A stretch of DNA of 64,000 nt from Isoetes taiwanensis (taxonomy: Eukaryota > Streptophyta > Lycopodiopsida > Isoetales > Isoetaceae): contig JAJEKV010000004.1 in NCBI GenBank assembly GCA_021234155.1, forward strand, positions 10,852,109 through 10,916,108, given 5' to 3'. This document shows, one piece after another, positions 10,344 through 50,411 of this stretch. A model generated the notes under the pieces. That model ran no database searches and had not been told where the DNA came from. It saw nothing but the letters and a program-made list of their open reading frames with translations. The position numbers were made by a program, and so were the translations under genes. Each line of letters begins with the position of its first letter. The first letter of the stretch is position 1.

Positions 10344-10355
10344 GCTCTGATACCA
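10344..10355 (-). other. Primer-binding site (initiator tRNA-Met)
   Basis: Immediately inside the 5' LTR the minus strand reads TGGTATCAGAGC. This is the standard plant copia primer-binding site, complementary to the 3' end of initiator tRNA-Met. The untranslated leader lies between here and the ATG at 10098. Confidence 0.95.
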
Positions 10356-10753
10356 TGAAATTAAATATGATGCATATGGCAGAAAAACAAGAACCTTATA
10401 TATTCACACAAGTTGAATATATTATGGAATCATATATTCATGTATGAATATTAGAGTACATATCTGTCTTGAGACAGTTGCAGACTGGAAGGCTCCCCCG
10501 TAGTTGTAGAATGCTTGAGTTGAATGTGTTGTGAATATGGAAAATAGGACAGTTTATGTAAGCAGGTGAAAGAGCATATGAAAGGTCATGAGGACATGTC
10601 TTTTGGGAAAGGACATGGTTATTGGAAAGGGTATGACTATTGGTCATGGATCAATGAGGTGGACAAGTCTATGTGGTTAAAGGATGACGTGGCGAAGGAG
10701 TGCGTTGAATTGAAGGCAGCGGATAACTACTACCGGAATCCATTCCGTTAACA
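10356..10753 (-). repeat. 5' LTR of the copia element
   Basis: 398-bp copy matching 5516-5913 at about 98 percent. It should carry the element promoter. No TATA box was located with confidence. Confidence 0.95.
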
Positions 10754-19100: not shown

Positions 19101-21980
19101 GTTCTAGTAGGGTTTGCATTTTGGGTGCCGAAGTTTTGGTCTTTTGCACTTGGGACTTGGCCGATAAGATGCGATTGAGAACGCGAAGCAAGGGGGCCCG
19201 ACGGAATAGAGTTTGGATCCTGTACTCCTCCGTTGTGGCGTTAGAAGTAAAGGGCAGCTTTTGCAAGTAGCAAGACATTCATAAATTCGTAATTAATGCA
19301 TAGTACGAAATTAAATTCTGATTTTTTGTCGTGAGGCTTCCTAAGTCATCGCCAACATATCTGAGCCGGTTTTCAAAATTTCGGACAAGGTTTAGATCAA
19401 AGTGTTTGCATTAGAACCGCCCGGGCAGCTTTGTTGTTGGGCAGCCGAAGCTGGCACACTTGCCCAAGTCAAACAAGGCCAGGACCTTGCAAGGCCGTCT
19501 CATTAGAGGGGAGAGTCTGAACCCCAAGAGGCGAGCCCCAAAAGTTTCCGAGGTAGCCTTTCCGGCGCTCCCGGGGGCCGTGACGCTAAAGACCACACTC
19601 CGGATCTCGGTTCCCCTATCCGGACCGTTGAATCCCTTCGTTCAAGGGCCCCGCTCGATAGGGTCCAACAAAATCCAACATCCGTCCGGGAGAACTTACC
19701 AAACCATGGCGTTCTGCGGTCGGCCAGGTGTAGAAACCAAAGTGTTTTGTCGTTCGGACTTTTGCGGTGGCTCGGAATGGCGATTCGACTTCGGCCACAT
19801 CGTCGGGAGGCGAAATTACCCTAGAGACCAAGTTGCACGGTCAATTTTGCAAAAGAAAGAAACACTTACGCCCTACGTTGCAAAAAGATTCGATGTGACC
19901 ACCTCCTAGGCCAATTGACTACGAGTGTGTTGGACATGAGATAGTTTGACGCTTCCTCGAGAAGAGGTGGTCTTCTGGCCACGAAACTTGGTCCCCAGGA
20001 CATTGTCGACATTCCGAGTCCATTGGCGAGCGAATCACGATTGGGAGGAGGGAAGTTGCTGTCCGTCGCCGGGGCCCGGGGAGAGGACTTTTGGGGCAAA
20101 GCCGCTTGTGTGGTTTTAGGTTCCGTGCTCACGGCGTCAACACCACCCCTCTCACGCCAAGACACGCGCAAAGGTCCTAGTCGAATCGACAAGGATAGAG
20201 CCTCCAAACGTAAACCCTATGAGTTGCCGGGTTCTAGTTGGGGTTTTGCGTTTTGGGTGCCGAAGTTTTGGTCTTTTGCACTTGGGACTTGGCCGATAAG
20301 ATGCAGTTGAGAATGCGAAGCAAGGGGAACTGACGGAATGGAGTTTGGATCTGTACTCCTCCCGTTGTGGCAGTTAGAAGTAAAGGGAAGCTTTTGCAGA
20401 AGCAAGACATTCATAAATTCCTAATTAATGCATAGTACGGAATTAAATTCTGATTTTTGTCGTGAGGCTTCTTAAGTCATCGCCAACATGAGGCCATTTT
20501 TCAAAATTTCGGACAAGATTTAGATCAAAGTGTTTGCATTAGAACGGTCCGGGGCAGCTTTGTTGTTGGGCAGCCGAAATGGGCACACTTGCCCAAGTCA
20601 AACAAGGCCAGGACCTTGCAAGGCCAACTCATTAGAGGGGAGAGTCCGGACCCCAGGAGGCGAGCCCCAAAAAGTTTCCCGAGGCAGCCTTTCCTGGCAG
20701 CGCTCCCCCGGGGGGCCGTATGCTAAAGACCACACTCCCGGATCTCGGTTCCCCTATCCGACCATTGAATCCTTCGTTCAAGGGCCCTGTCTCGATAAGT
20801 TCCAAAAAAATCCAACATCCGTCCGTGAGAACTTATCAAACCGCGAAGCGTCCTGCGGTCGACCATGTAGAAACCAAAGTGTTTTGTCGTTCAGACATTG
20901 CGGAGGCTCCGGAATGGCGATTCGACTCCGCCACATCGTCCGGGAGGCCGAAATTACCCTAGAGACCAAGTTGCATGGTCAGTTTTGCAAAAGAAAGAAA
21001 CACCGGCGCCCACGTTGCGATGATTCGGCGGACCACCTCCTAGGCCAATTGACTACGAGTGTGTTGGACATGAGATAGTTTGACGCTACCTCGAGAAGGG
21101 GTGGTCTTTTGGCCATGAAACTTGGTCCCCAGGGCAATGTCGACGTTTCGAGTCCATTGGCAGAGCCGAATCACGATTCCGGAGAGGGGAAATTGCCCGT
21201 CCGTCGCCAGGGCCTTCGGGAGAGGACTTTTGGGGCAAGCTGCTTCCAGGTGGTTTTTAGGGTCCGTGCTTTGGCGTCAACACCCCCCCTCTACGTCAAG
21301 ACACGGCGCAAAGTCCTTGTCGAATCTGACAAGGATAGAGCCTCAAAACGTAAACCCTATGAGTTGCGGGTTCTAGCGGGTTTTTGCGTTTTGGATGCCG
21401 AGTTTTGGTCCTTTGCACTTGGGACTTGGCCGATAAGATGCAGTTGAGAACGCGAAGCAAGGGAACTGACGGAATGGAGTTTGGATCTGTACTCCTCCCG
21501 TTGTGGCAGTTAGAAGTAAAGGGCAGCTTTTGCAGTAGCAAGACATTCATAAATTCGTAATTAATGCATAGTACGAAATTAAATTCTGATTTTTTTGTCG
21601 TGAGGGCTTCCTAAGTCATCGCCAACATACTGAGCCGGTTTTCAAAATTTCCGGACAAGGTTTAGATCAAAGTGTTTGCATTAGAGCGGTCCGGGCAGCC
21701 TGTTGTTGTTGGGCAGCCGTGTGGCACACTTGCCCCAAGTCAAACAAGGCCAGGACCTTGCAAGGCCGTCTCATTAGAGGGGAGAGTCCGAACCCCAAGA
21801 GGCGAGCCCCAAAAAGTTTCCCGAGGCAGCCTTTCCGGTGGCTCCCACCGGGGCCGTGCGCTAAAGACCATATTCCGGATCTCGGTTCCCCTATCCGGAC
21901 CGTTGAATCCCGTTCAAGGGCCCTGTCTCGATAAGGTCCAAAAAAATCCAACATCCGTCCGGGAGAACTTATCAAACCGC
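13170..21980. repeat. Tandem array of a ~1,135-bp unit, about 7.8 copies
   Basis: The landmark GACATTCATAAATT recurs at 13623, 14758, 15892, 17027, 18164, 19274, 20406 and 21542, giving spacings of 1135, 1134, 1135, 1137, 1110, 1132 and 1136. Other landmarks (AAGTCAAACAAGGC, CCTTGCAAGGCC, GATCTCGGTTCCCC, GGTGGTCTTCTGGCC) keep the same register. The first copy is partial (from about 13170) and the last breaks off at about 21980. Units carry many small indels, so no reading frame is conserved across all copies; the longest frames, at 17154 and 18291, appear only where two neighbouring units are nearly identical. The array is noticeably more GC-rich than its surroundings. I know of no matching gene or rRNA. 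Confidence 0.95.
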
Positions 21981-25622: not shown

Positions 25623-26242
25623 CAGCCTCCACGTCATATTTTCGCTTCTTTTTCCCCATGCCACCTAGGATACCAAACTCTCATAATTACAGATTTACTT
25701 GGAATATTCTCCCGGAATAAGGGGGATCGCACATTCATGGTGCCATATGTATTTAATTCTGTTGGTTGTAAGACAGACTGATGCAACACGTGGCGCTTCT
25801 AAAAAGCCACTTGCATTATAGCATACTGGCAACACATGCCAGTGTCTCTTAGTTTGTCAGATACCAAGCGTGCGCGTTATCGATTCTTGTCTTGCGCTAT
25901 TTTCATTTAGAGGCCATGCCATACAAGCTTCCCGCCTTCTACATTTCAAAATTTGAATGTGTAGGTTGAAGCTTTGTATCAGACTTTAATTTCGAGGCGC
26001 TGCGACTGCGCCTTAAAAGTTCGTAAATCGGGGTCTTTACTTCATCCCAATACAGGCTTCCCGCCCCCTACAATTCGAAATTTGAATTTGCTTAATGTAT
26101 AAAAGCATGGATTGTAGGAGAATGGACTTTTTGATTTCCATATGCACGTTGCAAATTTCAAAAACGAGGCTAGTACGGACATTCGGCTCACACGAAGCGA
26201 ATTGGGCTGGGGCATACAAATTGTACACCTTAATTTCGTGTC

Positions 26243-26896
26243 GTGCGATCCACTCAGATCCAACTGACTCACGAATATGCTCCAGTCTTCAATCGCAAAA
26301 AACGAGGTCTAAAAAATAAGAACTTAGACCTCGACGTGTTGCATCTTGCAGGATCAAAAAGTGTCGACATCTGGGCGGATGGCAGTTTATATCCATTGGA
26401 TCCGTTGAGTGGCAAGAAACCGTCATTTTGGGACGTTTCAAGTTTAGTCCGATTTTGTGGTGACGGTAACTCTGGCCTCCTGGGATATTGTGAGAGATTG
26501 AGAGAGGATGAAAGCATCCGGAATCGAATACAGTTCCTTGAGATGAGCTGCTTCCGATTGTCACAAGAGAATTATAACTTAAACCAGCAGCTCTTTTTTC
26601 TCTCGCTTCATTACTCCACTGTAATGAAGGAAAGGAATGACGGCTTGGGGAGGGAAACCTCTTTGAGATACGAAGTGGACAAGTCCAAATTGGTGATAGG
26701 GCAGCTGCAGGAAAAGATCCAAGAGCTCGAAAGAGCAAACTTTGGACTTCAATGTAGGTTAAAGAATTTGAAGAAAACACCCCTTGGCTTGCGAAAAAGG
26801 AAGAAGCACTTTCGACCGATAGAGGAACTGAAGTTTGGATCAGGTGCATTCAGACGCAGGGTCACGATCACAAGGTCCGTTTACAACACTAGCCAT
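26243..26896 (+). pseudogene. N-terminal part of the transposon protein, coiled coil, cut by a MITE
   Basis: About 218 codons are open. The middle (residues about 85-180) is rich in heptad-like Leu, Glu and Lys and looks like a coiled coil (for example QLQEKIQELERANFGLQ). It is followed by a basic patch, GLRKRKKHF. The frame ends in a stop formed exactly at the left border of the inserted repeat at 26897. The next long frame, from 27446, lies in the same phase on the other side, because the insert is 549 bp, a multiple of three. The simplest reading is one protein interrupted by the insert. It may be the DNA-binding or oligomerising part of the transposase. Confidence 0.5.
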
Positions 26897-27445
26897 TAGA
26901 GGAAAAATGAGATCACATTTTGTCCCATTAAGGGATGCTTAAAATGCCATGTCAGCTTTTTAAACTGTCCAATAAGAGAAGAGCTCCAGTATATCTCATT
27001 CCAGTATTATGTGGCAGCCTGTAATTAATGCAGCTGCAACTAACTTCTGTAGTATCATTTTTTCATTATAACTTTTGATCCAGAACTCCGATTCAAAAAC
27101 TTTTTGTAGCAATGGGTTCGTCTTCACAAGATCTATCTAGTGATAACCCATTCATACATCTTTTACGATATAAATATATAAGAAATAAGCAAAAAATCAT
27201 ATTTTTTTAAGGTTAACGCATATGACCATATTGAAATACATCATAACCATATATCATTGGAAAGATCTTTCCATTCCGCATCTAATGCAACAAACGCCGC
27301 AACATTTTGACAAGTGGATCAAAAGTTATTGGGGAATAACAACAACAATGAAGTTGTTGGTGCTGCATTAATTGCAGTTAATAGAGGGTAGCCATTCCAT
27401 TGGAGGATTCTTATGGGGATGAAATGAGATCTCAAATTTCCTCTA
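26897..27445. mobile_element. 549-bp MITE-like insertion with long inverted ends
   Basis: The left end TAGAGGAAAAATGAGATCAC mirrors the right end (rev. comp. TAGAGGAAATTTGAGATCTC). Similarity continues with mismatches deeper into both arms: AATTAATGCAGC near 27017 against GCTGCATTAATT near 27363, and AACTTTTGATCC near 27070 against its complement near 27318. TA borders each side. It carries no coding frame. The central part contains ATTGAAATACAT...ATATCATTGGAAAG, resembling sequence at 38160-38204. Confidence 0.7.
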
Positions 27446-29411
27446 ATGAAAGGCCAATCAAGATTTGGGAAAAGTAGAAGCAATCTTGGTTATGTAGTGA
27501 AGAACCTAGCGACAAACAGAGAGATAGTGGACATGATTTGTCAGCCCTACAACTCTTCTCTCAAGAAGATGGTATTGGAAATGGTACTAGGAGAGATCTA
27601 CAAGAAGCTAGAAGCGACAGATGTACAGACTATTTGTGACGATGTAGGCATCAGTAGGCTTGGTTACTGTTCTCTATTCAAGCCATTCCACGAAGCATTG
27701 AAAAGAATGGGCACAAAAAAACTATTCGCTCCACGTCCACAAATTGTTGAGAATACAAGGGTAATACTAGGACAAAGATGGTGTATGCCATATTAGGAGA
27801 GATGCACCACGTTGAATGTGTTGGTCCTGCCATAGCCATAAAAGATAAGAATGGCAAGGATTGTTGTGATATAGTTGGAATGAATGAACGCAATAATCTT
27901 TGGGTTGACCTGGTTAGTCTCTTACAATTCCAAATATTATGACTTAACAGTTGCAGAAACTAATGGTGAGATTGAAGTTTGCATAAAATTGGATGAAATG
28001 GAACTGACCAAGTTTGAGAAGTATGAGAGGGTATCCGTTGTCATCATGAATAGAGCAATTGAGAATGCAATTGCACATGCTAAATCAAAGAGCAACAAGA
28101 ATAAAAAAAAGATGTAGAGGTGACGGACGAGGAGAAGAAGCGTGCCGAAAAATGGTTCTCGTGTCAATCTGAAGATGACACCTGGTGGTTAGGTCTCTTT
28201 AAAGTTCAGAAAGAAACCCACGAGGTATTGAAATGGGTGTTCAATCAAACTGACATCCCGAGTCTAATATCTAGATTCGAGGGAGGGGAAAAATTGCAAG
28301 TAGATCACTATGGATCTTACAAAGTAATTTTCCACTTGGCGTCTGATTGAAAAACTGAGAAAGCAATGTACATAAGTGGAGGAGGACAAGGAACATGCAA
28401 AAGTTGTCTGTACTGCAATCATGCAAGAAAGTCAAGTACTGGGAAGACTGTTTCAACCTTGTCCCTTCCTCCTAATAGAGGAGAAAAAAATCCCAAGTTC
28501 CATGGCATTTTCCCCATTCCATTAGAGAGGCTTCATATCTGCACTTTGCACGGCTTTGTGAGAATCATCGACAAGATGATATTTTTGAGCTGCAGATTCG
28601 TGTGGAACATTTCAGACAAGAAGAGAAGAGAGGAAGGAATTCGTAGAGTTGAACATGTTTTATCAGAAGCAGGTTTCCATGGTGGCAATGTAAGATTAGA
28701 GCTCGATGAGAAACGGGTAGGAAGAACAAGTGTGCCCTGTAAGGTGTCAATTGGAGGGGTGAAAGCTCGACGCTTCATAAAGAATCATAGAGAGGCTCTG
28801 AACGAAAACCAGATGGGAGAAAAGGTCTATGAATTTGGAAAATTGCTGGTTGATGCGGAGCAGAACCGCATAGATGGCGTTCGTTCGGCATTGAAGAAAA
28901 AAAAGCATGGAATGCATTGTCTGAATTGTTCCCATACATTTAGAGAATGGACCTCACAAGAGAAGATGCAGAAATGTTCGTGCAAGCGAATAACAAATTT
29001 ATTAGGGCTTACATAGACGCATGAGGAGAGAGTGAAGTCACGCACTACTTGCACATCTCTTGGGCTCATGCACCTTGGTTTTTTAGGATGTATGGAAGCC
29101 TAGCAGTGTGGAGTGCACAAGGCATGGAGAAGTCGCATAAACAAGCTAAAATAGCCTTTCATCGTAACACTCAAAGAGGGGATGGAAATGTGGGAACCAA
29201 CCCTCTAAGACAGATGACAGAGTGGTTTTATAGAAGGGCGATGGCTAAATACGACAAGAAGGTCGCTTTAAGGAGCAACCCAGAAGTCGTAAACACCATT
29301 GGCATAATGCTGAAGAGAAAACGGAAACTTGCTTGGCAAAATTCTAGGGCCCCACTAGCATCGCAACAGTGGAGATCTAAGAGACAAAGAATCGGTAAAG
29401 TATACTTGTAA
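27446..29411 (+). pseudogene. Transposase-like protein of unrecognised family, multiply frameshifted
   Basis: At least five overlapping frames in all three phases (27446-27796, 27884-28117, 28120-28350, 28366-29016, 29049-29411) read as one decayed protein. Recognisable pieces are DDTWWLGLFKVQKETHE, then HLASD followed by an in-frame stop and MYISGGGQGTCKSCLYC, and finally HAPWFFRMYGSLAVWSAQG with MEKSH. A pattern of HLxxDxK...CxxC followed by a later GxE is seen in several RNase-H-fold transposases of plants and animals, so I infer a DDE-type enzyme with the final E in GMEKSH. I cannot place it in a named superfamily. Cys pairs such as CLNC...CSC may bind zinc. Confidence 0.6.
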
Positions 29412-32170: not shown

Positions 32171-33388
32171 TTAGTCGTCATCTATGTCCGTAGGAGAATG
32201 ATGAGTATTGTATAAAGCTCTTGCCAACGCATCCCTTCTTGCAGTATCTTCTAGAACTAGTTCTTCTTCAACATTTTTCTCATTGCAATTGTCCACTCCA
32301 TTCTCATCAGCCTCCTGAGAGTTCTCATTTGGGTGTGCACTTACTGCACCTAGTTCACGTAATGTCTCCCTTGCACTTGCCTCATTTTCTTCTAACTCTG
32401 CGGCTGCCTCAGTGACCCAATCCTCATCAAATGCCTCGTTATGTATAATGCATAAATTATGCATTACCAAGCAAGCTGCTACAACAATTGGTACATGCTT
32501 TAGATGTGTCTCTGTCTTCTTCAATAGTATGCGGAATCGTGCTTTCAGTATCCCAAAGGCTCGCTCCACAGACATTCTAGTACTTGATTGGATGAAATTC
32601 CAATGTTTTTCATGATCCTTAAATCCAGTACCTTTGTTGATAAATGGTGTCAATAACCAAAGCCTAGGAGTGTATCCAGCATCCCCAAGCAAACAATAGT
32701 TCTTCATTTCACCAGACTCAAATTTAACATAAGCTGTTGTTCTTTGCATTAAAGCCCAATCATGCATGCTTCCAGCCCATCCAATATCATAGTCCCATAT
32801 CAAGCATCTTGAATCTACAATGGCCTGCAGAAGTATAGAATGGAACCCTTTCCTATTGTAATAGTCTGCACCATGGTCAACTGGAGCTGTGATAGGAATA
32901 TGACTGCCATCTACTGCCTCAATTACATTTGGAATGCCTTGTTTTGCCTCATATGCAATAGCGAACTCTTTGCACTGCTTTTCATTTGGCCAATGTAATC
33001 CACAATGCAATTCTCTCATTTTTAGCTTGATAGCTCGACTGAATTCCAAAATACATCTATGCACCGTTGTAGTGCCAACTCCATAAAGTTCTGCTACATA
33101 GTCCAATGTAGATCCAGTGGCTAGGCGTGTCAATTCAATGGCAACCTTTTTTGGCACTTCTATTGCCATACGCATATTGGTATCTCGTTTCAATAGGACA
33201 GGGTGCAAAATATCACAAACCCATTGAAAGGTTGCTCTAGAAACCCTCATTCTTTGTCGAAACATTCTATCTGTGTGGCTCAGTGATAGAATGTTCTCGT
33301 AGAAGCCCTCGACCCGCTTAGGCACCCAACAAATAGGCTTTGCCCTCTTCATGAAAGGCATATAGCTTACTAATTCAATCACATGCAT
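32171..33388 (-). CDS. PIF/Harbinger transposase (DDE superfamily 4)
   Basis: 405 codons from an ATG, a usual length for this family. An N-terminal helical region (about residues 40-130, FRQRMRVSRATFQWVCDILHP onwards) matches the helix-turn-helix part of plant Harbinger transposases. The catalytic residues are visible: D in EAVDGSHIPI (about 165), D in GSMHDW (about 210), GDAGYTPRLWLLTPF (about 235), and E in SVERAFGILKARF (about 280). The acidic C-terminal tail is poorly conserved. It acts in the nucleus, cutting element ends and inserting into TWA sites, together with the Myb-like protein encoded just upstream on the same strand. The frame is intact. Confidence 0.95.
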   Translation of the reverse strand: MHVIELVSYMPFMKRAKPICWVPKRVEGFYENILSLSHTDRMFRQRMRVSRATFQWVCDILHPVLLKRDTNMRMAIEVPKKVAIELTRLATGSTLDYVAELYGVGTTTVHRCILEFSRAIKLKMRELHCGLHWPNEKQCKEFAIAYEAKQGIPNVIEAVDGSHIPITAPVDHGADYYNRKGFHSILLQAIVDSRCLIWDYDIGWAGSMHDWALMQRTTAYVKFESGEMKNYCLLGDAGYTPRLWLLTPFINKGTGFKDHEKHWNFIQSSTRMSVERAFGILKARFRILLKKTETHLKHVPIVVAACLVMHNLCIIHNEAFDEDWVTEAAAELEENEASARETLRELGAVSAHPNENSQEADENGVDNCNEKNVEEELVLEDTARRDALARALYNTHHSPTDIDDD

Positions 33389-33785
33389 ACATGCCCTTCA
33401 TATATCTTGTTGACGGCCGTGCATCACTAGGCCTCAACAACTCTAGCATGATGAAAACATGAAGTGCTTGGCAAATTTGAAGTAGACCCTTCCGCATAGT
33501 CAGATCCATGCCGAAGGATATGACCTGTAAGTGTTGAAGCCAATAAACACATTCAGTGGAAGTAGATCATCGATAAATAGAGAATGGCAAGTGCATATAG
33601 GAATGATACAAAACATTGTAATAACATCTCTTAGTGGAACACTACTTTTCATAATAAACAAGTAGTATTACATTGGAACACAACTAGTGAGAATGATTTG
33701 ACAATTGGAAAACAAAAGTTACTTCATTGAGAACAAAGTTGACAAACATCAAATAGAAGACTAGTTTAACAACTCAAATTGGCAA

Positions 33786-34787
33786 CTACTGCAGTTTCTC
33801 AAAAAGGCCTTGCAAACTCTGAGATATTCCCTTCAGCATATTCAATTTTTCCTTCTCTAGTGCAAGGTTATCATCCTGGACCTTTTCACTTATTTCAGTC
33901 ATTCTTTTTATTGCCAAAGCAACCGCAGATGCTGCTCCTTTTGCTTTTCTCTTTTTCTTTGAATTTACGTTCTTCTTCTCATCTGGTGTCAACCTCTTAC
34001 CCCCATCTTCTTTGTCAATGTTTGTCTTACTACTCTCCCCACCTTTACTACTCTCCCCACCTTCTGTCTCAACATTGTCAACCTCTTCTGCATTTTCAGC
34101 CATAGGCGTATTAGCATCTATGGCGCTATCATGGGCATAACAAACAACGTGAGCACGTTCACTCATGTACTGGTCTATTAGATCAAACCATTTACACTTC
34201 TCAGATCTTTCTGCACCTGAGAGATTATTTTGGGCCTTGTCTTGTTTATAGTCTCCATAGACTGCTTGCCACTTCTTCCTACACCCATCAGCATCTTTGT
34301 CCAAGTCTGGACATCGTGCCACTAACTGCACGTACAATTTTTGCCTGATATCAAAACCCTGTTTTCCAGCTTTGATAATGAACTCCTCGTGCATTTCTCC
34401 ACGTAAATGGATTAAGGCAACCACCCAATTATCTTTCCAGTTTGTGCCTCTTCCCTTCTGCACATCTCCAGCAGGTGCTTTAGAAGGCTCCTTCACTTTT
34501 CTTCCACGAGGTTTTTTCTTTTGAGCCGATTCTTGAACAATTTCAGTAAGGTTTTGGTTTGGCTCATTTACAATAGGGGGGCTAACATAAGGGTATACTT
34601 GAGGGATAGAGGATCGTCTTGCAACTGGACCACGTGAAAATGCATGAAATGAGACAGGATAATTTGGAAGTGGCAAAGCAGGTTGAGATGAAGGTATTTC
34701 TTGAGATTCAGAATCCTCAAGGATTTGTGTAAAAGGGTAGGATGAATATCCTTGAGGCATGTAGGAGTAACCATCAAATCCATCCAT
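33786..34787 (-). CDS. Harbinger Myb/trihelix-like partner protein
   Basis: 333 codons. A trihelix/Myb-like DNA-binding region occupies about residues 110-215 (GTNWKDNWVVALIHLRGEM ... CRKKWQAVYGDYKQDK ... KWFDLIDQYM), with the expected spaced tryptophans. A proline-rich N-terminus precedes it. A lysine-rich nuclear-signal-like stretch, KKNVNSKKKRKAKG, follows at about 270, and then a C-terminal coiled coil. In characterised Harbinger elements the partner protein is needed for nuclear import of the transposase and for DNA binding. It lies about 400 bp upstream of the transposase gene in the same orientation. The frame is intact. Confidence 0.9.
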   Translation of the reverse strand: MDGFDGYSYMPQGYSSYPFTQILEDSESQEIPSSQPALPLPNYPVSFHAFSRGPVARRSSIPQVYPYVSPPIVNEPNQNLTEIVQESAQKKKPRGRKVKEPSKAPAGDVQKGRGTNWKDNWVVALIHLRGEMHEEFIIKAGKQGFDIRQKLYVQLVARCPDLDKDADGCRKKWQAVYGDYKQDKAQNNLSGAERSEKCKWFDLIDQYMSERAHVVCYAHDSAIDANTPMAENAEEVDNVETEGGESSKGGESSKTNIDKEDGGKRLTPDEKKNVNSKKKRKAKGAASAVALAIKRMTEISEKVQDDNLALEKEKLNMLKGISQSLQGLFEKLQ

Positions 34788-34799
34788 GGCAGATATCTG

Positions 34800-35860
34800 G
34801 GAATCTAAAATGGCAAAAAAAGAAAAAAGAAAAATTTTGCAAGTTCAATGCTACATAGTCCAAAGTTCAAAGCAATGATCACAACATTTAGTAGATACAA
34901 ATTGACTACTTGGAAACAATATCTAGTAACAAGACAAAAAATACAAAATACCAATATAAAAAAGATCACACAAAGTTGACATGAATACCATGTACAAAGT
35001 TGACCATGTAGAAACAAAAACAAGCAAAAACAACTTTTGCAAAAGCAAACATGTAGATAGACAACAAGCAAAAACAACTTTGCAAAAATGAACATGTAGA
35101 TACCATGTAGAAACCATGTAGATAGAAACAAAAACAAGCAAAAACAACTTTTGGAAAAACAAACATGTAGATACCAAGTGGATACCATGTAGATAGAAAC
35201 AAAAACAAGCAAAAACAACTTTTGCAAAAACAAACATAGATACCATGTAAAAACCATATGTACAAAACCATAGGAAAAACAGAGATATCTAGAAATCGAA
35301 AAAAAAAATCCAATTTCTCACTATAGAACCATAGGAAAAACAGAGATATGAACGATAGGAAGAACAACACACAAATCCGACCTGTACGCACAAATCTGAC
35401 CTGTTGATCCGACTGTGAAGCCTCTGTAAATCCGAAAGACTGTAAATCCGAGCTGTTGAAAGGACTGAATTGTAAATCCGACTGCAAATCCCGACCTCAG
35501 AGATATGATCCGATATGATCCGACCACAGTTTTATGATTCGACCTGTTGAATAGACTGCTGAGATATGATCCGACCTGAGAGAAATCGAGATGGGAAAAG
35601 ATTACAGACCTGAGAAAGCAGTAGACAGACCAAAATCCGAGCTTTGAACAAAATCCGACCTGAGAATTCGAGCTGTGAACAAAATCCGACCTGAGGCAGA
35701 CCCACTAATGCCGAAATCGAGCTGTGAAATCGAGCCTGCCAAAATCGATCTGAAAGCTTATGAACAGCGGAATCCGACCAAAAGAGATGCCGAAATCGAC
35801 TTGAAGCTTGAAGACTTCTCATATTTGTAGTTGCTGGTGCAGTTGATCGCAATTCCATAC
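34800..35860. repeat. Degenerate tandem repeats in the Harbinger upstream region
   Basis: From about 34980 to 35250 a unit of roughly 60-70 bp containing CAAAAACAACTTTTGCAAAA and CATGTAGATACC recurs three to four times. From about 35340 to 35790 the word AATCCGACCTG and variants recur more than ten times. No coding potential; the leucine/phenylalanine-rich minus-strand frames here come from the repeats. Possible regulatory or binding-site clusters of the element. Confidence 0.7.
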
Positions 35861-39965: not shown

Positions 39966-40785
39966 GTATATCTGGAGGTATGTCTGCTCTGATACCAATT
40001 ATGCCGTCCAGCATAAATGGCACTATATTCAGCTTCAGGATCTCCAGAAATATGCTTGATTGAGCTTTCAAAAGCTTGAAGGTGTTAAGGAATATCTGAG
40101 AAATAATGCGGGAAATGGATTGTTTGGATCTTTAAGAACTCCAATTCAACCTTCTAAGCCATTTGGCAAGCATACAGATTACATCAAATTGCATAGAGAA
40201 AGTAAGTCTACAGATCTAGCATACAAGAAACAGACATCTTACCTCTGGCAACATGTGGAACCGCCATTCCGACGCCCACTCCTCTCAAATCTCTATGTTC
40301 CGACAACGCTTCTCGCTGGAGCTGCGCCACACACAAATCACGTCTGCGTTAAATGTCGGCACAGTTATCGTCGAAAATGGCCCTGTTTCGCGTTAAAACT
40401 AGTGAAAAAAATGCGTTAAAATTAGGTCGTGCGTCAATGTTGGGGACCCTCCCCTATAACCTTTTTTTCTAAATAGGAAAAAAGCCTTAAGTTCACAAAA
40501 CCATTAGGAATATATTAATTTGAACCGAATTGGCCCTTCTGTTACAAAATTCAGTAGGATTTCCTGAGTGTAAAATGTTTGCGTGTAATTTCAACATGTG
40601 CAAAGTGTTTTTTTTTATTTGTTAAGTTGTATATAACAAATAAAAAGAGATTTCAACCCTTTGGCTGCCTATGGAGAGAATTACCTACAATACAATGAGA
40701 ACATATTTTCATTAATAAATGAAATGAAGGTCACAACTAGAAATTGATGATGATCAACTAGAAATCATCAATTCTCAGCCAATAA
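39966..40785. other. Stretch downstream of the SCY2 fragment
   Basis: An open frame at 40060-40419 has no recognised domain. Between 40340 and 40440 the word GCGTTAAA occurs three times, followed by a GC-richer GGGGACCCTCCCC. This could be an element terminus, but I found no inverted partner. The rest is AT-rich and leads into the 3' end of the transposase gene. Confidence 0.4.
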
Positions 40786-43700
40786 TTAATCGGGCAAGAT
40801 TCTAAGTAAAACATCCTCGAACAATATTGGTTGTATCATAGCAACATCTGTCGTAGGATCCACACCAAGCTCTTTATGCATGATGTAGAACAAGTGTTTG
40901 CAAGGAATGTACCTATGTTTCCTTTCACTGTTCATGAAGTCTTCACAAGTACAACTAGGCTCTCTTCTGATAGAGACTTTATAGCTATTGTTGTCTTTTC
41001 CAATAAAGAAGTCCACATGGCTTTTATTTAGCACAACCTGCTGAGTCACAACATAGCCTTGCATCTGGTAGCTTGAATTTAAACGGATCTCACTATCTCT
41101 ATTTAGTTTATTCCTCATATGCACAACTCTTCCACATCTTCTTAGCTGGGCTTTACCACTATCTCTATGCCTTTGGCTGCTAGCCAAAGTTGTTGGGACA
41201 ACCTCTTCTACATGTCTACCCAAGCCCTCAATGTTAAAACCTGCATCCTGTAACTTGCTAATTTCAGATTGTGTTAAGTTCACCCCTTTTGCTACAGGCC
41301 ACATAACAGGACGCACAGGCGTTGACAATAACATTTTCGAAGGGAACCAAGTATGTTTAACATCATCAGAACAAAACCAAAAGAACTGAGATTGAGTACC
41401 TCCAGAATACTTTCGGACACCATAGTAACAAGGGGCTACAGCAGAGGAAGTACCTTTGTTTATAAGCTTGTCACATTTTTGTGCTCCAGGTTTAGTTTGT
41501 CCTTGGCATCTAACTTTGCTACCTGGTTCTGTCCTTCTTAGAGCCCAAAATGAGTCATGTAGGATCTTCTCTTGCACAAGGATGTCTGTTGTGTTCTTGA
41601 ATAGGTTCTTAACAACAGGATCTGAATGTGGAATTCTAGATGTATTTCTCATTTGCTTGTCTGGCCTATGTGAACCATTCTCATCTGTCAGATCTATAGT
41701 TTCTGTCATTCTAGCTCTTTTATGGACAGTCTGTTCATTGCCTCCTGCTCCACTATCATGGATCGGCAAATCCATCTTGCTGGTGGTCTGATTTATAATA
41801 TTGACAGCTTCTACAGGCTTGACAGAACTGGCCATTCTTTGTTCAAATCTTTGTATTAAAGAGCTGATGCCAGGTCCTGCTCCAACATAATTGTGGTCTA
41901 AATGTGATCTGTATTTTGTACTTTGAAGAACAGCCTCAGTAAGATAAAAAATGCAAGCATCATACAAGCTCATGGTTTTTTTGTAACCATTTGCAGCTAG
42001 CCAACTGCCATGTCTTCATTCAGATAAATTTGTATTGGGAACATGTATAGCTGCTTCTAATCCTCTATTATTTAGCATGAAATTACTCCATCGGCTAGCA
42101 CGATGGTGCCACCATGACAACCAGGTTGTGAGAGCTCTGATGTCATTGGGAGCTGCTTTACCCTCCCACCAGCTCATAATTTTGTAATAGCATTTATCTG
42201 CATCCTCTTTTGTACGGCTTCTTTGCCATTGTCTACATAATTCCTTGTGCTCTTCTCTGTGTTGTTGGTATATATACTTCTTTGTGTGCCTTTGCATGCA
42301 TTGTTCAAAGTGAAAGACACAAGAACGTTCTTTGTCAGGCAAATGTTTCCCATTGAAGAAGACCTCCCTTATGGCATTCCAATTTGCCTGGGCCTCATCG
42401 GCCATAAATCCATGAAAGTTGGCAAGAGGGTAATTCTTGGAAATCATGACCTCATTTAGCAATTCCCAAAAGAGTCTTTGAGATTCAAGATCTTCTGTCT
42501 TCATATCACATATAGCTATTGTGAGAAGAGACTGTAGGCTGAAAACAACAGATGGATCGTAGAATGCCATTAGTTAGATAGTCTAAATAGATACAATTGA
42601 AAACATCACATACCTTGGGTCATACACATGGCAGGCAATGGTTGTCCAATCACTAATCCTTTTAACATGGTCAAAGTGAACCCAAGACTTATCAAGATCA
42701 CCTCCAGGTCGCATTCTATTCACCAAATCAACACCTGATCCTGGACCTACTGTTGACATCTTAAACACAAAGCACTTATCCTTCTCTATATGGTTTTGAT
42801 AAGGGAATCTTGAACCATGAAAATACTCGTATTTTAAACGTCTCTTCAAATGCACAATACTAGATTGGTCATCAATACATTGCTTATTCCTCTTACGACA
42901 ATCATCCAGCCATTTTCGCAATCTACGTGAGAAACAACATTAGTAAACAATGAATGAAGAACATTTAAAAGGATGCTTGATTACCTTCTTTGATTGCATA
43001 ATGGCTCGAGTCTCTTAAGAAGCTCATCCAATTGTTCAGAATTAAGCATTTGAACATCATCAATAGACTCACTATCAAGCAAATTGTTGCAAATAGCATC
43101 CATAGCAAGCAAATGTTGAGATTTTCTTGTGCCATTAGAACTTGATCCTTTTCTGGCTGAGATACTTATCAACTGCTTGTACTTAGCTATTTCTTCTCTA
43201 CTTTCAGCCATTCTTATCGGATGTCTATGTACACCATGCAAACGGATTGTTCCAAAAAAATGGGTGTATGTGCTATTGTTGGGATGGGTCCAAACATGGG
43301 GATCCATGTTTTGCTGCATTCCCTCCATACTACTACCAGCTTCCGCTTGCGATGGCAATTCAAATACTATAGTATCATTGTAAAATGGGGGGAGACAATT
43401 TACCTTTCGAGCCTCTCCAACATGTTGTAGTATCTTCTGGATCTTGTTCTTGTTGGGATTTTGATAATGTTGTAGAACGTTGAATTGTTATTCCTCCTTA
43501 AATATTTGGAGATGTAGAGGACTCAACAGGTATTGGATATTGAGGGGAACTTCCTAACAATGTTGTGCCATACACCGTTATTGAATGCCCATTTTTCTCT
43601 TCCACTTCAAATGTTGGCTCTCCAGCCTCATCAACATTTGGCAACAAATTCTGTGTCCTTTGTACATCCTCATCCTCTCCATCCATTTGAACAACAAGGA

Positions 43701-43800
43701 CGGAACTATTAGTAAATCCAAAGATTTGGCAAAGATAGCTCTGCTTGACAAGTGCAATGCCATTTCGGAAAGGAATATTTATGTACTGCTCCTTCAGAAA
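40786..43800 (-). pseudogene. MULE-like transposase with C-terminal SWIM zinc finger, spliced, one nonsense codon
   Basis: Minus-strand exons: upstream exon(s) between about 43800 and 43407 (ending GAAAG|GTAAAT), one from about 43355 to 42985 (AGAAG|GTAATC), 42922-42614 (CACGTAG|ATTGCG to CCAAG|GTATGT) and 42538-40786 (TTTTCAG|CCTAC to the stop). The core, ANFHGFMADEAQANWNAIRE followed by SCVFHFEQCMQRH, follows the MULE transposase pattern of a catalytic-D segment and then a C/H helix. The C-terminus, PSCTCEDFMNSERKHRYIPC then KHLFYIMH, is a SWIM finger (CxCx(n)CxH), common in MULEs and FAR1-type proteins. An in-frame TGA at 42016-42018 separates NTNLSE from RHGSWLAANGYKK; otherwise the frame is good. 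The gene lies head-to-head with the methyltransferase gene. Confidence 0.75.
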
Positions 43801-44349
43801 TAGTCAAGAACGTCGCCATTAGCAAGATAACAGTTCACAAAATGAAACATTGAGGTCTTTTTAAGTTAATCCTAGGTACTTCATGCTATAATTACAAATG
43901 ACGTTTTATTTGGTGAACGTTTAAATAATCATTTATAGTAGTGTTTTAATTTTAAGGTCATACCTACCCGTATATCCTCTCGATTATAGAAAATTTAAAA
44001 CGGTAATTATTTTTGGACGAATCCCATAAAACGAATTTATGGAACAAATTAAGTAGACTTTAACGGTAATCTTTCTTTAGATTAGACCCTTTCTAATCCG
44101 TTAAAATGACTACAAAACGTTCTTTACGTTTAAAAAAAAACGTAAAGAACAATTAGAAAATTAACGTTTTAAAAAAATTAACAATTAGACACACACAAAT
44201 GAAATTAGAAACTTATTATAGTAAGCTTCTTCATAATCGAACCCTAAAGTCTTCCTCGAACCCTAAACTTCTGTGCATTTTGAGCTAAATTCTAGTTCAG
44301 TTGGGCTCCTGTTTGAATCCGATTCAGAGTGAACGGCGCCGTTTATGGT
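43801..44349. promoter_or_regulatory. AT-rich divergent promoter region with a perfect 13-bp inverted repeat
   Basis: This roughly 550-bp space separates the 5' ends of the transposase and ParB-methyltransferase genes, so both promoters must lie here or within first introns. GTTCTTTACGTTT (44119-44131) and AAACGTAAAGAAC (44138-44150) form a perfect hairpin with an A6 loop. AACGTTT-like words are scattered around it (about 43915, 44116 and 44164). It is a plausible operator or binding site for the ParB-like domain, which is inference. Confidence 0.5.
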
Positions 44350-47300
44350 ATGTCATATGGATTTGGTATGTCTCTATTTCACACTCCCCCTAGAAGGTCT
44401 AGGAAGTCTAAGCTTTTTCATACTGAATTGCAAGAAAAGGCTATGGCACAGGAAGACATGGAACAAAATACTGAATGCACTGAGCCAGACTCCATAGAGC
44501 CATGTACACTTGAGGATGCAATTGCTGATGATCAGAAGGAGGGTTTGGGAGGTAGTCCATCAAAGAATCCCAGTCTTGCAAAAGGAAAAAAGAAGAAAAA
44601 GGAAACCGAGGATACTGAGACAGATGAATTTTCTAGAAAGTTCACAGTTCAACAGATTTCTGAAATTTTGCAAGAGATCAGAGTAGTCAAACTGAGCCCT
44701 CCACCACCTATTCCTCTATGCAGAATTTTGATTAATGAAGCAGTTCGTCTTGTCTCCAAAGGCTCTAAAGCAATGAGGGATACTTTGCGAAATGATGGGT
44801 ATGTGCAAGAGAAGGGAAGTTTCATATTATCTTTATCAGGCACAGGAGGCAATTGCATACCAGTAACTGACAATATCAAATCTACGTGGGACCCTCTGTG
44901 GGTAGAAGAGAATGATAAGTTTGAAGATGAATTAGTCAGCCATCCGGATTGGCAAGAACTTAGTGGCAGAATGTTCTTGTGTTGGGACGGCAATCATCGC
45001 ACAGATGTTTGAATGCAGGAGATAAGGGAGAGGCATCAACACGTTAGATCTATGCATTTCTCTGTGCATGCCACTTTTGTAGAAGTAGATCACCAACATG
45101 AGACACAACTTATTGCAGCTATGCAGCGTATCAATCAGTAAGTGTCAGTTTGATTTTTCTCATGCCACTTTAGAAGAGGTTTATAACTTGTACAATGTTT
45201 GTTTTGCATTCCAGATTAAATGAGACAGGTGTGGTGCGGATCAAACTGAAAGATATTTTGTATGGTGTCCACCGATTAACTACTTCTGATCTTACAACAT
45301 ATACTTCACATTTATCTGTGGACGAACTCAGATTGAGCATAGAGCGGGAGAAACAGGTTCTTGGCGAAGAGCCATGGTTTCCTCTTACGAGATATTTGCT
45401 TGCAAAAATTATGTACCAGGTATCAAAGTTAGTTGAATTTATAATTGCACATAATATTGAACTTTTTATATACATGCTGAATGCTTAATCTTATAACAGT
45501 CCACAATAGAAGCTGAAATTGAGGAGGCTATAAACTTGATGGAAGAGCCTCTGTTTAAAGAGGACAGAGTTGCTAAAGCTGAAAGGGAAGTAAGACGTAA
45601 GTGGCAAAACAAATTTCAAAAATATTTGGCAATTGTAAATCCTATGCTAGAATCCGATTGGCTGAAGAATGTTACAAGTAGAGATTTGGATAATAAGAAA
45701 ATGGCACTAACATTAGAGAAGTTATTCGCCTTATCTAAATCCACAGTGAGTAACCAGCAAAGGAATAAGTGGCTAAATATTATGGCATCTGGCACAGCGA
45801 TGATAGACACATATGGGATACTAAACAATGATAAACAATTCCGTGAGTGGGTTAAAAAGGAGACATGGATGGAGCACATGTTGAAGAAAGCTACTCAGCA
45901 AATGGAGTCTGTATGTTTGGCAAGTGATATCACTATTAGCCACAATGATGACGATTTGGACTCTTGGTTTAGAGAATTTTGGTTGCAACATCGCTCTATT
46001 CTTTTCCATATGATGGAAAAAAAACTGTCCTACACAGCCTCAACTGAGGAAGCATTCGACATCAACAAGGTCTCTATGCGTGTCACATATAGGTAATCCA
46101 TTTTCCTATTATTTTTGCGCTGAAATTTTATGTTTTTCAGTTACTTCTATTCTCGACTAACTAAAATGTATATCAGGTACTTCAAGTATGCTCTTGCAAA
46201 GAAATATATTTTAAAATTTCCAGCAGTCTTAAAGTCATGGACAGTAACTGGTAGTGAATCCTGCATGTATTCTGGACCGGGCCAGTTGGATCGTGAACCA
46301 CCCATGACCAGATGGGAGCTAGAGAATTGCCCTTGGTGGCTCGATTTTAAAAAAGGATGTATGCCTGAAGAAGAAAAGCATGTAAGGGCTGCTAGATTCA
46401 ATACAGATTCTAAGAACAAAAAGAGTCCTAGTGTTGCTTCTATGCAAACAGGTTACAGTGATGATGCCAGAGATGTGGATAAAAGAACGGAAAAGAAGAC
46501 ACATTCAATTGTCTGATGAATCAAACCATGTGCAAACACCTGCCATGTATACAGGAGGGAACTTGCGAGAGACACAGGAAGTAAGTAGCCAGGCACCTAG
46601 CCATATGGCTCTTGACATGGAAGTTGGTCCAACTTATAAAAATGTGGCTTTACGGCTAATAACAGAAGATGTTAGAAATGTTTCTGCAACTTTGACATGC
46701 AAGAACCCCGATACACCATTTAAAGGCATTCGTGATTTTGGTAAGTCCGTAAAGATTGCATCGAAAAGATGCAGTAGAAATGGTGAGATCAGAGATTGGG
46801 GTGTTGATCTTTTGCTGATTGATCTTCCCACCAATCAATATCCTACTATTGGACATCCACATATCCCTGATTGGAACAGATGTGACAGTCAGCTTATAGA
46901 TGATTGTTTTTCTATTGGTAACCTCTGATTAGACGATAGGGGCTATCTTGTTTGTATCTGCACAGTAGAACAATTTAAAAATGTTGAAGTTATTGCAAAG
47001 AAACGGAACTTGGAAAGGAGAAGAACATACACGCTGATTAGTGATGTCCCTTTCTCTTATGGAAGTGATATGTTAGGTCTTATTGACACGAGCACTTTGT
47101 GTGTGACGTTGTATGGCAGAATTGGTTATCAGGGTAATTTAGTTCACCCTATGGCCTTTGTTGAAGGAAAGCTAAATCACATGTCAAGCATTATAAAGCA
47201 TGAATGTATACAATCAGAGAAGCTGATATCAGATGGTTCTGGAGGATGTAGATACAATCTTCAAAAGAGTATTGCTTTCATGCAATTTTTATTGCACTCG

Positions 47301-47543
47301 TTTTGTGTCCCAAGTGGATTTGTATTGGAACTATTTGCTGGTATGGGCTCTATGATGGAGGCAGCTGCTATATGGGGTGCTAATTACTATGGAATGGAGA
47401 AGGATAAAAAGTTATGTCAGATTGTCATGGAATTGCAGGGCTATAATAGGCCAAGACCATTTCACATTTCTGGTGCCATGAAGAATATTGAAGATGAAGA
47501 AGATGAGGTGACAACTGCAGACTTGGTGGAACCAGAGGACTAG
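44350..47543 (+). pseudogene. ParB-like domain fused to a permuted DNA amino-methyltransferase, spliced, decayed
   Basis: The first ATG in frame is at 44350. Exons 44350-45137, 45215-45419, 45500-46092 and from 46177 join at GT/AG sites in consistent phase. Residues about 200-260 hold MFLCWDGNHRTDV...MQEIRERH and HATFVEVDHQHETQLIAAMQ, the DGNHR signature and following strands of ParB/sulfiredoxin-like domains. The C-terminal third has DLLLIDLPTNQYP (46806-46841) in the place of motif IV (DPPY-type) and, later, LELFAGMGSMMEAA (about 47325-47362), the AdoMet-binding motif I, then GANYYGMEKD. Motif IV before motif I is the beta-class order of N4-cytosine/N6-adenine methyltransferases. Damage: in-frame TGA at 45010 and 46926, and one frameshift between about 46440 and 46510. 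DLPT departs from the active DPPY/SPPY. Confidence 0.75.
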
Positions 47544-49383
47544 TGGGTAACAAAACTTTCTTTTAACTTAATAGGAAATTCATGTTCCATTTTCTTAATG
47601 TCATTGACTAACAAATAATCTCCGTAGTTGCTTGCCCATCTATGCAGAACAATTGGCATCATTCATGGCTGCCTGCCATTCTCCAATTTTGCAAACAACC
47701 AAGTACAAATCATGTTGCTACATAGATGATGAGGCAGCAGAAGATTTTTTATGGGACGCAATCTATATTGAAGCAGGTTTTATGTGCAGCCAGGTCAATC
47801 AATTGTTTGCCATTTAAATGCGTCATAGAAGAATGCTTCTGTCACTACTTCTGTCACTGGATACTTAAGATGTGCAACCAAGTTTAAGTTCTTCAATTAT
47901 TTGTCATTTGAATGCTTTATAATGCTTCTGTCATTGGATATTTATGTAAGTCTGAGATAATGGTTGTATGAAATATTTATCTTTAGTTTTATGATGCTGA
48001 CATATGACAGTGTTGTTGCTCATCCCAGTTTAGCAGTCAGACATTGCAGAAATCAATCTAATTCCAGGCAGGCAAGCTCTAATTCCAGGAGCACGTGTTC
48101 CTTTTTTCTTTGTTAAATATGTTCTGTTGTGCTTGTTCATTTTAAAATGCTTAAGAGGCTTCTACCATGCTGCTAAATATGTTGCAAAATATCAGTTGTA
48201 TTCCATAATAATGATTTTTCCATGGTACAATGATCTGCTTTATCTTTCTTTCAATAAGTATACATTCATTCTGCTAAGACAAGCTTACATGTTACTGTTA
48301 TTCAGTGCTTCTCCTTGTCCCATGTTTGCATCTTCAGCTGGAAATAGAGACTTTAATTGCAGAGACAGACAATTGTTGAGCAGGCCAAAAAACTAGTGGG
48401 TAAGCAACACAAAGAGTTTGACGAATAAATAAGCTAGAAGAGGTTGATCAATTGAATGTGTCTTGTCATTATTAAGGTTATCATCCAGATTTATGAAGTT
48501 GTTCTACCATCGATTCAGCAAGGTTTTTCCTAGCATCGTGGAGTTATCTTCCCCAGTTTTGAAAGGAAAATGAAGTACATATATTATCTCTGCGACAGTC
48601 TGTTGTTGAATCTTCAGTGCATGATGGCGAAGTTGTCTACACAGTGCATTTCTTCAGTGCGTGATGGCGAAGTTGCCATGGGGCATATACAATCCTCTTC
48701 AGATCGTTATCCTGCGAGTGTTTTTTCTATATGAGTGTAATATCGCTTTCTTCAATTGATACAGTTCAATTGCTACAATGTTTTGTCCCTTAGCTACAGT
48801 GATATTCCGTTCAGTCCTCAACTGCCAAACCTTTCTCAGGTTGATTGACCTGGTTGCACATTCCTCTGCGAGATCGGCTTAAAATTCAAGGATAAAATTG
48901 CCTTCCGGGATATAATTTGCTTAAACTATGTAGTATCGCATATTGCCGCATGAATTAGGATTGGCGTTAGGCTAGAATGGTCCAAGGTTGGCTTGGATGT
49001 ATTCAAGCGAACCTATATTTTGATACACTAAGATCTTTTTTTTCCTGTGTACACAACTATATTTAAGCGAACTTGCAAACTGCAACAACATCCAAACGTT
49101 TTAACATGTTATATAACACTTTATAGACTACTTCCTTGCCGATTTTGAATTCAGAACATACCAGAAATTTATGGGCACACAAATTGCGAGACAAGACCTA
49201 TATCGAAGTGAAGATAAAAAATCGAGATTGGGAAGTGATAATATAAGGTGAAAGTTTGATATTTGTCATCGAAATCAATGTGCGATATTGAAGATAAGGA
49301 TTAAATTGAAATTGAATGGTTGAAGAATTTGTTATGATTGGCTATGTCTAGATAATTTTAGAAGCATAAATTTACCACTAACA
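47544..49383. other. Downstream of the methyltransferase, mostly noncoding
   Basis: After a possible acceptor (TCTCCGTAG) an open frame at 47632-47817 encodes a 62-residue peptide with CYIDDEAAEDFLWDAIY. It might be a last exon of the methyltransferase gene if the TAG at 47541 is spliced out, but I cannot show this. ACTAGTGGGTAA occurs at about 47539 and again at about 48392. TTCAGTGCRTGATGGCGAAGTTG is duplicated at about 48614 and 48654. No terminal inverted repeat was found. Confidence 0.35.
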
Positions 49384-49485
49384 TTAGGATTAGGATTAGG
49401 ATTAGGATTAGGATTAGGATTAGGATTAGGATTAGGATTAGGATTAGGATTAGGATTAGGATTAGGATTAGGATTAGGATTAGGA
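49384..49485 (+). repeat. (TTAGGA)17 perfect hexanucleotide array
   Basis: Seventeen uninterrupted copies of TTAGGA. It differs by one base from the TTAGGG and TTTAGGG telomere types, so it is best treated as a microsatellite. It ends about 15 bp before the LINE 3' tail that follows. Confidence 0.95.
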
Positions 49486-49499
49486 TTCTTGGTTATTGT

Positions 49500-49622
49500 G
49501 TTTGGTGATGGGGCCTAGTCCCCAGGTTTTAGATGGGCTGTTGCCCTTGCATGTGCCGTCCCATAACCCGTTGGGTTCCCGTGGACGTAAAAATTCATCT
49601 TATCTTATCTTATCTTATCTTA
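49500..49622 (+). mobile_element. LINE 3' end with (TCTTA)5 tail
   Basis: CCCGTGGACGTAAAAATTCA followed by five TCTTA units matches the 3' ends of the fragments at 58186 and 60171, which carry GTGGACGATAAAAA before their own short tail repeats. Only about 120 bp remain and no coding part. Confidence 0.6.
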
Positions 49623-50411
49623 ATAACATATTTGTTTGGGCACTCCATTGTTGGTGCAAACTATTTTGTTTGGGCATCTCTCTACTAATGCAAGCTATTT
49701 TGTTGAACTTTATTGAGCAGTTTACATTTTTTAATTGGGTGCTTATTGAGTGTTTTCTCAAGTGTCGTATTTTTCTCTATAACTGAATAAAGGCAACCTT
49801 GATTTTCTCTAGAGGTTTTGCATCGAGTAACATCAAATTTGCCATACTAAGTTCTTTGAGTTCCCAAGTTGTTGGTCTTGCTTTGGAACAGTGTTCTGGG
49901 AACAACACCTTATGCCTTTAGATGTTCATGATTATCCTGATTATGATTGTGATATATATAAGTGAACAAACGACTTAATGGTAATGGGGTCAACACAATT
50001 AATTGTGAAGTTGCAAAATGTGCAGAATATGGTAAAGTTTGCGGTAAAATACAATAAATAGTTTTGGGACAAGCTACGCCAGCTGATCGTTGAAGGCAAA
50101 TGTAAATATAATGTTCCTTAACCCCCCCAGGTTCCTCCCTTAACGTTACATTAATATAATGTTCCTCGAAGACACATTACAATCTCTTCCACTAGACATA
50201 ATGGTTGTATGATTTTGCCAAGCAAGAAAAACACTTTGCACACAATAAAAACACTTATAACAAAGATTTTCCCGGAATTCCTTTAACAAGGATTTGCAAA
50301 AGGATCATCAAAACGTTACTTTTAAAAATAAAAAAGTTACTTTGTACTGCATGCATTATATTATGATGAAATCAAATGTTTAGGAGTTGACTGTTGCAAG
50401 TAATTAAATAA
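49623..50411. other. Intergenic stretch, nothing recognised
   Basis: AT-rich. No gene or clear repeat beyond a partial duplication of TATTTTGTT(T/G) around 49660-49700. Confidence 0.4.

Follow-up and report, generated by a model that had tools for sequence, protein, structure and literature searches.

A head-to-head pair of transposase and methyltransferase-domain genes in Isoetes taiwanensis, probably a decayed copy of a two-gene Mutator-like transposon

The gene pair and its products

On contig JAJEKV010000004.1 of Isoetes taiwanensis we analyzed a stretch of 64,000 nucleotides (64 kb; referred to below as the window), in which a gene for a transposase of the Mutator-like element (MULE) type with a SWIM zinc finger lies head to head with a second gene, whose product carries a methyltransferase domain (Table 1). 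The two start codons are 530 bp apart. A preliminary description of this DNA, made from its letters, had recognized two spliced genes diverging from a spacer of about 550 bp; positions and strands were found as described, and the observation of the divergent pair is confirmed. It has to be qualified in that both copies in the window carry stops, the transposase gene also a frameshift, and thus neither is an intact gene. The longest stop-free stretch measures 409 codons, as compared to a maximum of 174 in 100 simulated sequences.

The preliminary description had gone on to interpret the pair as a transposon carrying its own DNA-marking enzyme. Taken whole this interpretation is partly supported; its transposon part is well supported. 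We consider it probable that the locus represents one decayed member of a repetitive family of Mutator-like DNA transposons with two genes, and that the second protein is an accessory encoded by the element and acting on the element's DNA.

Table 1. Features of the gene pair and of the probable transposon copy (positions in the window)
Feature	Position	Strand	Remarks
Transposase gene, MULE-like with SWIM finger	40786..43819	minus	Introns about 42923-42984 and 42539-42613
Transposase defects	42016-42018 (stop); near 43490-43500 (frameshift)	minus	Also a probable frameshift near the start; Cys-rich segment missing
SWIM zinc finger CTC...CKH	40894..40983	minus	Pfam E 0.62 in the window copy
DDE-type core exons	42016..42922	minus	D, D, C-x2-H, and E in NLSE directly before the stop; alignment
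Region between the start codons	43820..44349		CpG-rich, AACG/CGTT-rich; presumably a shared promoter
Second gene, 5 exons, 950-codon model	44350..47543	plus	GT-AG introns 45138-45214, 45420-45499, 46093-46176, 46452-46554
Conserved N-terminal domain with DGNHR	44626..45136	plus	ParB-like by motif only; 10-copy alignment A6
DGNHR motif	44986..45000	plus	15/17 rows
N6_N4_Mtase domain, beta-class order	46632..47474	plus	Pfam, hhalign, alignment
Motif IV DLPT	46821..46832	plus	D[LF]PT in 18/20 rows, DPPY in 0/20
Motif I FAGMGS (binding of S-adenosylmethionine)	47334..47351	plus	GxGS in 19/21 rows
Probable whole transposon copy, about 9.7 kb	40566..50273		Decayed, read by eye; left end GAGTGTAA..., as in L037/L040; right end ...GATTTTCCC, as in L022 (L023 nearly)
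Left terminal inverted repeat, imperfect	40566..40615	plus	Inner TGTGCAAAGTGTTTTT common to the right end
Right terminal inverted repeat, imperfect	50224..50273	minus	On its own not above shuffles
Left target site duplication (probable) GGATTTCCT	40557..40565		Equal to the right one in 8/9 letters, by eye
Right target site duplication (probable) GGAATTCCT	50274..50282		Equal to the left one in 8/9 letters, by eye

The transposase copy of the window shows the C-x-C...C-x-H ligands of the SWIM finger, which the preliminary description had named, together with the DDE-type residues. With residues 200-917 of the read-through protein as query, and matches with E up to 1 taken, 13 relatives were found; the best of them had E 6e-141 and 36% identity, and the longer proteins measure about 1050 amino acids. 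In their alignment the core residues are kept, the window copy included: D434 in 11 of 11 rows, D500 in 12 of 12, C528 and H531 in 12 of 12, and E627 in all seven covering rows, which places C-x2-H between the second D and the E as in MULE transposases. The four SWIM ligands, and with them the zinc finger expected of a MULE, are present in all six covering rows; Pfam reported a SWIM match in 4 of the 13 relatives, significant in P0003 (E 6.8e-5). A Cys-rich N-terminal segment is found in 10 of 12 rows and is missing in the window copy and in P0004, a partial protein. The Pfam profile for MULE transposases matched none of the 13 relatives, and the label MULE therefore rests on the element ends and on the D, D, C-x2-H and E residues, which we take to be the anatomy of the MULE catalytic triad. 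A structure model of the transposase, of low confidence (predicted local distance difference test, pLDDT, 48.8), gave no fold match.

The second gene has short introns (77, 80, 84 and 103 bp) and, in the window copy, in-frame stops at 45010-45012 (codon 221) and 46926-46928 (codon 745). A frameshift near 46.5 kb was considered and rejected, the fourth intron preserving the frame. As judged from its sequence, the predicted protein of about 950 residues combines a conserved DGNHR domain with a C-terminal amino-methyltransferase fold of the beta class that appears to keep the loop for S-adenosylmethionine (AdoMet). The preliminary description had read motif IV (DLPT) before motif I (FAGMGS), the order of the beta class, and this order was borne out, as was the assignment of the C-terminus to the N6_N4_Mtase family rather than to another one: the last exon matches Pfam N6_N4_Mtase (PF01555) with E 2e-7 and 31.7 bits against a cut-off of 26.7, the match covering the motif X to I half only. 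Aligned by hhalign to seven enzymes (five from plasmids, two from phages), the domain reached a probability of 96.9 over 59 columns, again from motif X to I, and motif I has the G-x-G-S/T pattern of the family. In a third subfamily (L034, L035, L037, L039 and L040) motif I reads LLTGTGS, not LFAGTGS. The second gene also matched DNA methyltransferase families of PHROG, down to E 5e-6. A tblastn search of phages (E up to 10) returned 270 records, many with E above 1. Of 60 that were listed, mostly matches to residues 165-290, 54 bear the annotation methylase or methyltransferase and six the annotation hypothetical. The best match among PDB sequences (E 0.023) was to methyltransferases, and further PDB searches gave nothing relevant. 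Searches of viral and of prokaryote contigs, an Rfam search and a bacterial promoter scan gave no informative result.

The N-terminal domain has 64 invariant columns in alignment A6, whose 10 copies were picked as stop-free in this domain. Its DGNHR, by which the preliminary description had named a ParB-like domain, is a motif of the DGxHR type following a hydrophobic strand, a mark of ParB. Neither Pfam, with the 10 alignment members scanned, nor the PDB sequences gave a match to the domain, and the window copy yielded no ParB profile match and, in a single-sequence model (pLDDT 44), no fold match. A test by way of four phage methylases gave a ParB match in none of them. ParB is therefore a resemblance in motif, not a membership.

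Copies in the genome, element ends and selection

The 1.66-Gb assembly (1110 contigs) was searched with the 204-residue last exon of the methyltransferase gene, which gave 154 matches (601 first-look candidates, 150 scored); the window itself is among them, and several places are matched in two or three pieces. The eight best matches are 81-100% identical (self included), most others about 30-45%. Stretches of 10 kb were fetched for 20 loci; leaving the window itself aside, these are the eight best matches and, more distant, twelve of 34-38% identity. Because the eight best were taken and open frames were preferred, the set is not a random sample. A transposase was found in 12 of the 20, two of them among the eight closest (L026 and L028) and ten among the twelve distant (L030 and L032-L040), in every case 5' of the methyltransferase gene and on the other strand, even where the methyltransferases are only 36-40% identical. 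The two genes, which the preliminary description had placed on one transposon, are thus adjacent in other copies, too. In L021-L025 the last exon is 94-97% identical to that of the window, and the fetched 10-kb stretches hold no transposase match.

The preliminary description had proposed a search for terminal inverted repeats and target site duplications of 8-11 bp, and both were found in all three relatives tested, the inverted repeats being imperfect and the duplications exact and 9 bp long. The elements L037 (6665 bp) and L040 (6726 bp) start with GAGTGTAATTTTTTT and finish with AAAAAAAATTCCTCC; they are 97-99% alike over the element, yet flanked by different duplications, GACCAGAGA in L037 and CCCAGTGAC in L040. 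L034 (about 5257 bp) starts with GAGTGCAAC, finishes with ATTCCCCC and has the duplication AGTTTCTAT (9 bp, or 10 when one letter is assigned to the outside). For comparison, 70-by-70 grids were placed at random in the window, and a shared 9-mer was present in 42 of 2000. Each of the three elements contains the second gene together with parts of the transposase gene. The scores of the inverted ends in six sequences were 54 (L034), 45 (L037), 45 (L040), 43 (L030), 33 (window) and 25 (L032). For the window copy the left-end alignment was drawn from a neighbouring start, and an exact repeat scan of the window ends found nothing longer than an unrelated 7-bp repeat elsewhere.

Selection was estimated as the ratio of nonsynonymous to synonymous substitutions (dN/dS) after Nei and Gojobori, in pairs that were chosen by hand, share copies and are not independent, values with dS above 1 being unsure. 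For the methyltransferase part dN/dS was below 1 in 18 of 18 pairs (0.08-0.72), with 0.09-0.23 in the seven pairs of dS 0.33-2.5 and 0.15 in one pair above this range; the highest values came from close pairs (L037-L040 0.72, L032-L033 0.59, L033-L036 0.57). The DGNHR region gave 0.08-0.67 in 11 of 14 pairs, the other three being saturated in dS, and the transposase 0.05-0.19 in nine of nine. The second protein is under purifying selection. From the ratios below 1 it follows that the second gene was kept while the elements multiplied, although less tightly than the transposase. Since the pair travels together, since copies share ends with 9-bp duplications and since dN/dS is below 1, we therefore assign the pair to a two-gene transposon family of the Mutator-like type.

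The window harbors further repeats. At 5515-10753 lies a Copia retrotransposon with 399-bp terminal repeats that are 98% identical and one open frame of 1289 codons, a young insertion, and at 32174-34844 a transposase of the PIF/Harbinger type (DDE_Tnp_4, E 4e-30) with an adjoining second open frame. A neighbouring transposon in the window gave a Plant_tran match. A tandem array at 13608-21980 consists of about seven copies, 86-91% alike, of a unit of roughly 1136 bp; its G+C content is about 0.52 as compared to about 0.40 around it, and it is flanked by CpG-rich patches near 12.5-13.1 and 23.5-24.0 kb. At 26234-29408 there are open frames of about 120-220 codons, three of which were scanned without a Pfam match; they perhaps belong to another, unclassified transposon.

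The intergenic region and the role of the second protein

The ratio of observed to expected CpG (CpG o/e) is 1.54 between the genes as compared to 0.27 and 0.35 in the gene bodies. In eight of the 12 related pair loci, those with a match to the N-terminal part of the transposase, CpG was counted in stretches whose limits were set roughly, and in seven of them the intergenic value lies above both bodies (0.56-1.08 versus 0.27-0.60). Many active promoters escape CpG methylation in the germline, and the findings suggest that the intergenic region is such a promoter; the second protein might be the cause of its escape. The words AACG/CGTT occur 16 times in 43804-44349, a count reached by none of 698 windows of the 64 kb and by 0.2% of 5000 simulations with the region's own dinucleotides; AACGG/CCGTT occurs five times and AACCCTA twice. 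These words were picked post hoc, and the enrichment of AACG/CGTT is only a lead.

Most likely the second protein is an accessory that is encoded by the element and acts on DNA, either like VANC or by true methylation. VANC of the VANDAL MULEs is described, in the available parts of the papers, as removing silencing by binding repeated motifs in the non-coding DNA of these elements (PMC5735166, PMC10398659, PMC13317346). In a similar manner, the second protein could act on the non-coding DNA of its own element, the shared promoter and the ends; it would modify bases there or, should motif IV be inactive, bind to them. The outcome would be that silencing is countered or transposition helped, as VANC does for VANDAL elements.

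Several findings weigh against this reading of the locus. No complete element with both genes and both ends is among the fetched 10-kb stretches, which cut off the far end of most of the fuller transposase genes and for this reason would not show one; the transposase is incomplete in each of the three delimited elements, L037 having the SWIM part only, L040 the two ends only and L034 all but the N-terminal part. The terminal repeats of the window copy do not rise above shuffles (score 33; 20 flank shuffles reached 37). Eight of the 20 fetched stretches (L021-L025, L027, L029 and L031), among them six of the eight closest copies, are without a transposase match; in these the gene may lie beyond the stretch, may have been lost or may have diverged. 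As to CpG, the 64 kb contain, among 1270 windows, 12 with a score above the intergenic one, the outer flanks of the Harbinger-type element (0.73 and 0.81) and the sides of the Copia long terminal repeats (0.70) have raised values as well (0.40 between the open reading frames of the Harbinger-type element), and L032 behaves in the opposite way, its intergenic CpG o/e of 0.09 being below that of the bodies. Among 5.8 billion proteins, from which 6452 and 4454 candidates were taken by shared words, no relative of the second protein outside this genome was found. Finally, the family lacks the (D/N/S)PP(Y/F/W) pattern of motif IV: DPPY is present in 7 of 7 plasmid and phage enzymes and, with motif IV placed by eye in the alignment, in none of the 20 rows of the second gene.

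The last point bears directly on whether the protein methylates. Decay was rejected as the cause of DLPT, since D[LF]PT is conserved across subfamilies (the two exceptions are L026, which has DLPN, and L028, where DLP is followed by a gap). The aromatic residue of motif IV normally stacks on the flipped base. Because it is absent from D[LF]PT, methyltransferase activity is not to be assumed, and the writer of N4-methylcytosine (4mC) or N6-methyladenine (6mA) suggested in the preliminary description is no more than a possibility, as is the purpose of protecting or marking the ends of the element. It is nevertheless possible, if less likely than not, that a Mutator-like family has fixed and kept under selection a bacterial-type DNA amino-methyltransferase, with D[LF]PTN as a new form of motif IV and with a DGNHR domain, which methylates the promoter and the ends of its own element; such a mark would not be read by the host's silencing via 5-methylcytosine (5mC), and the CpG-rich divergent promoter would stay open. 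Quite possible too, though short of an even chance, is a pseudo-enzyme in which the methyltransferase fold and the AdoMet pocket were kept and methylation was lost, and which binds DNA in a sequence-specific manner, so as to recruit host factors or displace them. The replacement of DPPY in 18 of 20 rows, including subfamilies 36-40% identical to the window, argues for it, as does VANC, a DNA binder that is not called a methyltransferase in the parts of the papers available. Against it stands the retention of the GxGS loop (Table 1) and, in motif IV, of the D and the P that follows two positions later, both kept in 20 of 20 rows.

The conserved DGNHR and the phage ParB-methylase BCE_0392, for which the accessible text reports formation of 6mA and nicking (PMC3459991, PMC5512222), would fit a nuclease or nicking partner, in which the DGNHR domain is a DNase of the ParB/Srx type, with the methyltransferase part shielding the donor in the manner of phage ParB-methylases, in the service of excision or replication rather than of silencing. 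Neither the 10-row alignment nor the window copy matched a ParB profile or structure, and we regard this role as improbable. A somewhat better, still unlikely case can be made for a methyltransferase gene that is mobile in the absence of the transposase, too, whether as a non-autonomous element or by another route. It would explain L021-L025; against it, the 10-kb stretches leave about 3.5-5.5 kb upstream in four of these loci and 0.2 kb in L024, and the alignments with the window, that of L024 for example, and between copies have large gaps. That a host methyltransferase gene merely adjoins an unrelated transposon is hardly credible. The absence of a transposase from six of the eight closest stretches speaks for such a chance neighborhood; the head-to-head arrangement, which recurs across deep divergence in 12 of 20 loci, the parts of both genes within shared ends with 9-bp duplications and the 154 genomic matches of the last exon speak against it, and for the loci examined it was rejected.

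If the DNA-acting accessory is enzymatically active, a cut-and-paste transposon would bring along a DNA mark of its own other than 5mC, and self-marking against host silencing would be directly testable; if it is inactive, the family would be a conserved example of a transposon accessory derived from a methyltransferase fold. In both cases MULEs would gain a new kind of partner gene, and copies with open frames in the genome can serve as test material.

Comparison with known systems

In the literature searched, which left out most subscription papers, no MULE was reported to have a methyltransferase as its partner. In the available text of a survey of MULEs the second genes named include mudrB, PMD, SET and OTU (PMC6446971). 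MuDR and other MULEs resemble the Isoetes element in having a DDE transposase, often with SWIM, duplications of 8-11 bp and a second open reading frame that often is antisense, and differ in that the word methyltransferase is absent from the text of this survey as far as available (PMC6446971).

The phage ParB-methylase BCE_0392 and the plasmid enzymes M.EcoGIX and M.BceJIII are, by their descriptions in the accessible text, DNA methyltransferases from mobile elements of prokaryotes; ParB is present in one, and two belong to the beta family (PMC3459991, PMC5512222, PMC7736820). They differ in being prokaryotic and, in the case of M.EcoGIX and M.BceJIII, in having DPPY.

Among eukaryotes, an element-encoded DNA methyltransferase is shared with DIRS, LINE and other retroelements; according to the parts of the paper available, the enzymes of DIRS elements are adenine methyltransferases, and C5 enzymes occur in some retroelements (PMC5890265). 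These are retrotransposons with Dam-like or C5 enzymes, whereas the Isoetes element is of the cut-and-paste type and its second protein has a predicted beta-class fold. N4CMT of bdelloid rotifers is described as an intron-bearing eukaryotic amino-methyltransferase of PF01555 with 4mC at transposons (PMC8885841); unlike the Isoetes protein it is, as far as the accessible text goes, encoded by a host gene with a chromodomain, outside any transposon. For Marchantia a 4mC enzyme is mentioned in the portion available (PMC12344493).

VANDAL21 of Arabidopsis with VANC can be likened to the Isoetes element by description: a MULE-type transposase together with an extra gene, short repeated motifs in the non-coding DNA and an extra protein tied to the state of DNA methylation (PMC5735166, PMC10398659). 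The inverted repeats of VANDALs are given, in the text available, as absent or short and degenerate, although present in some relatives (PMC6446971). VANC itself differs in not being called a methyltransferase there, whereas the Isoetes partner has an N6_N4_Mtase domain.

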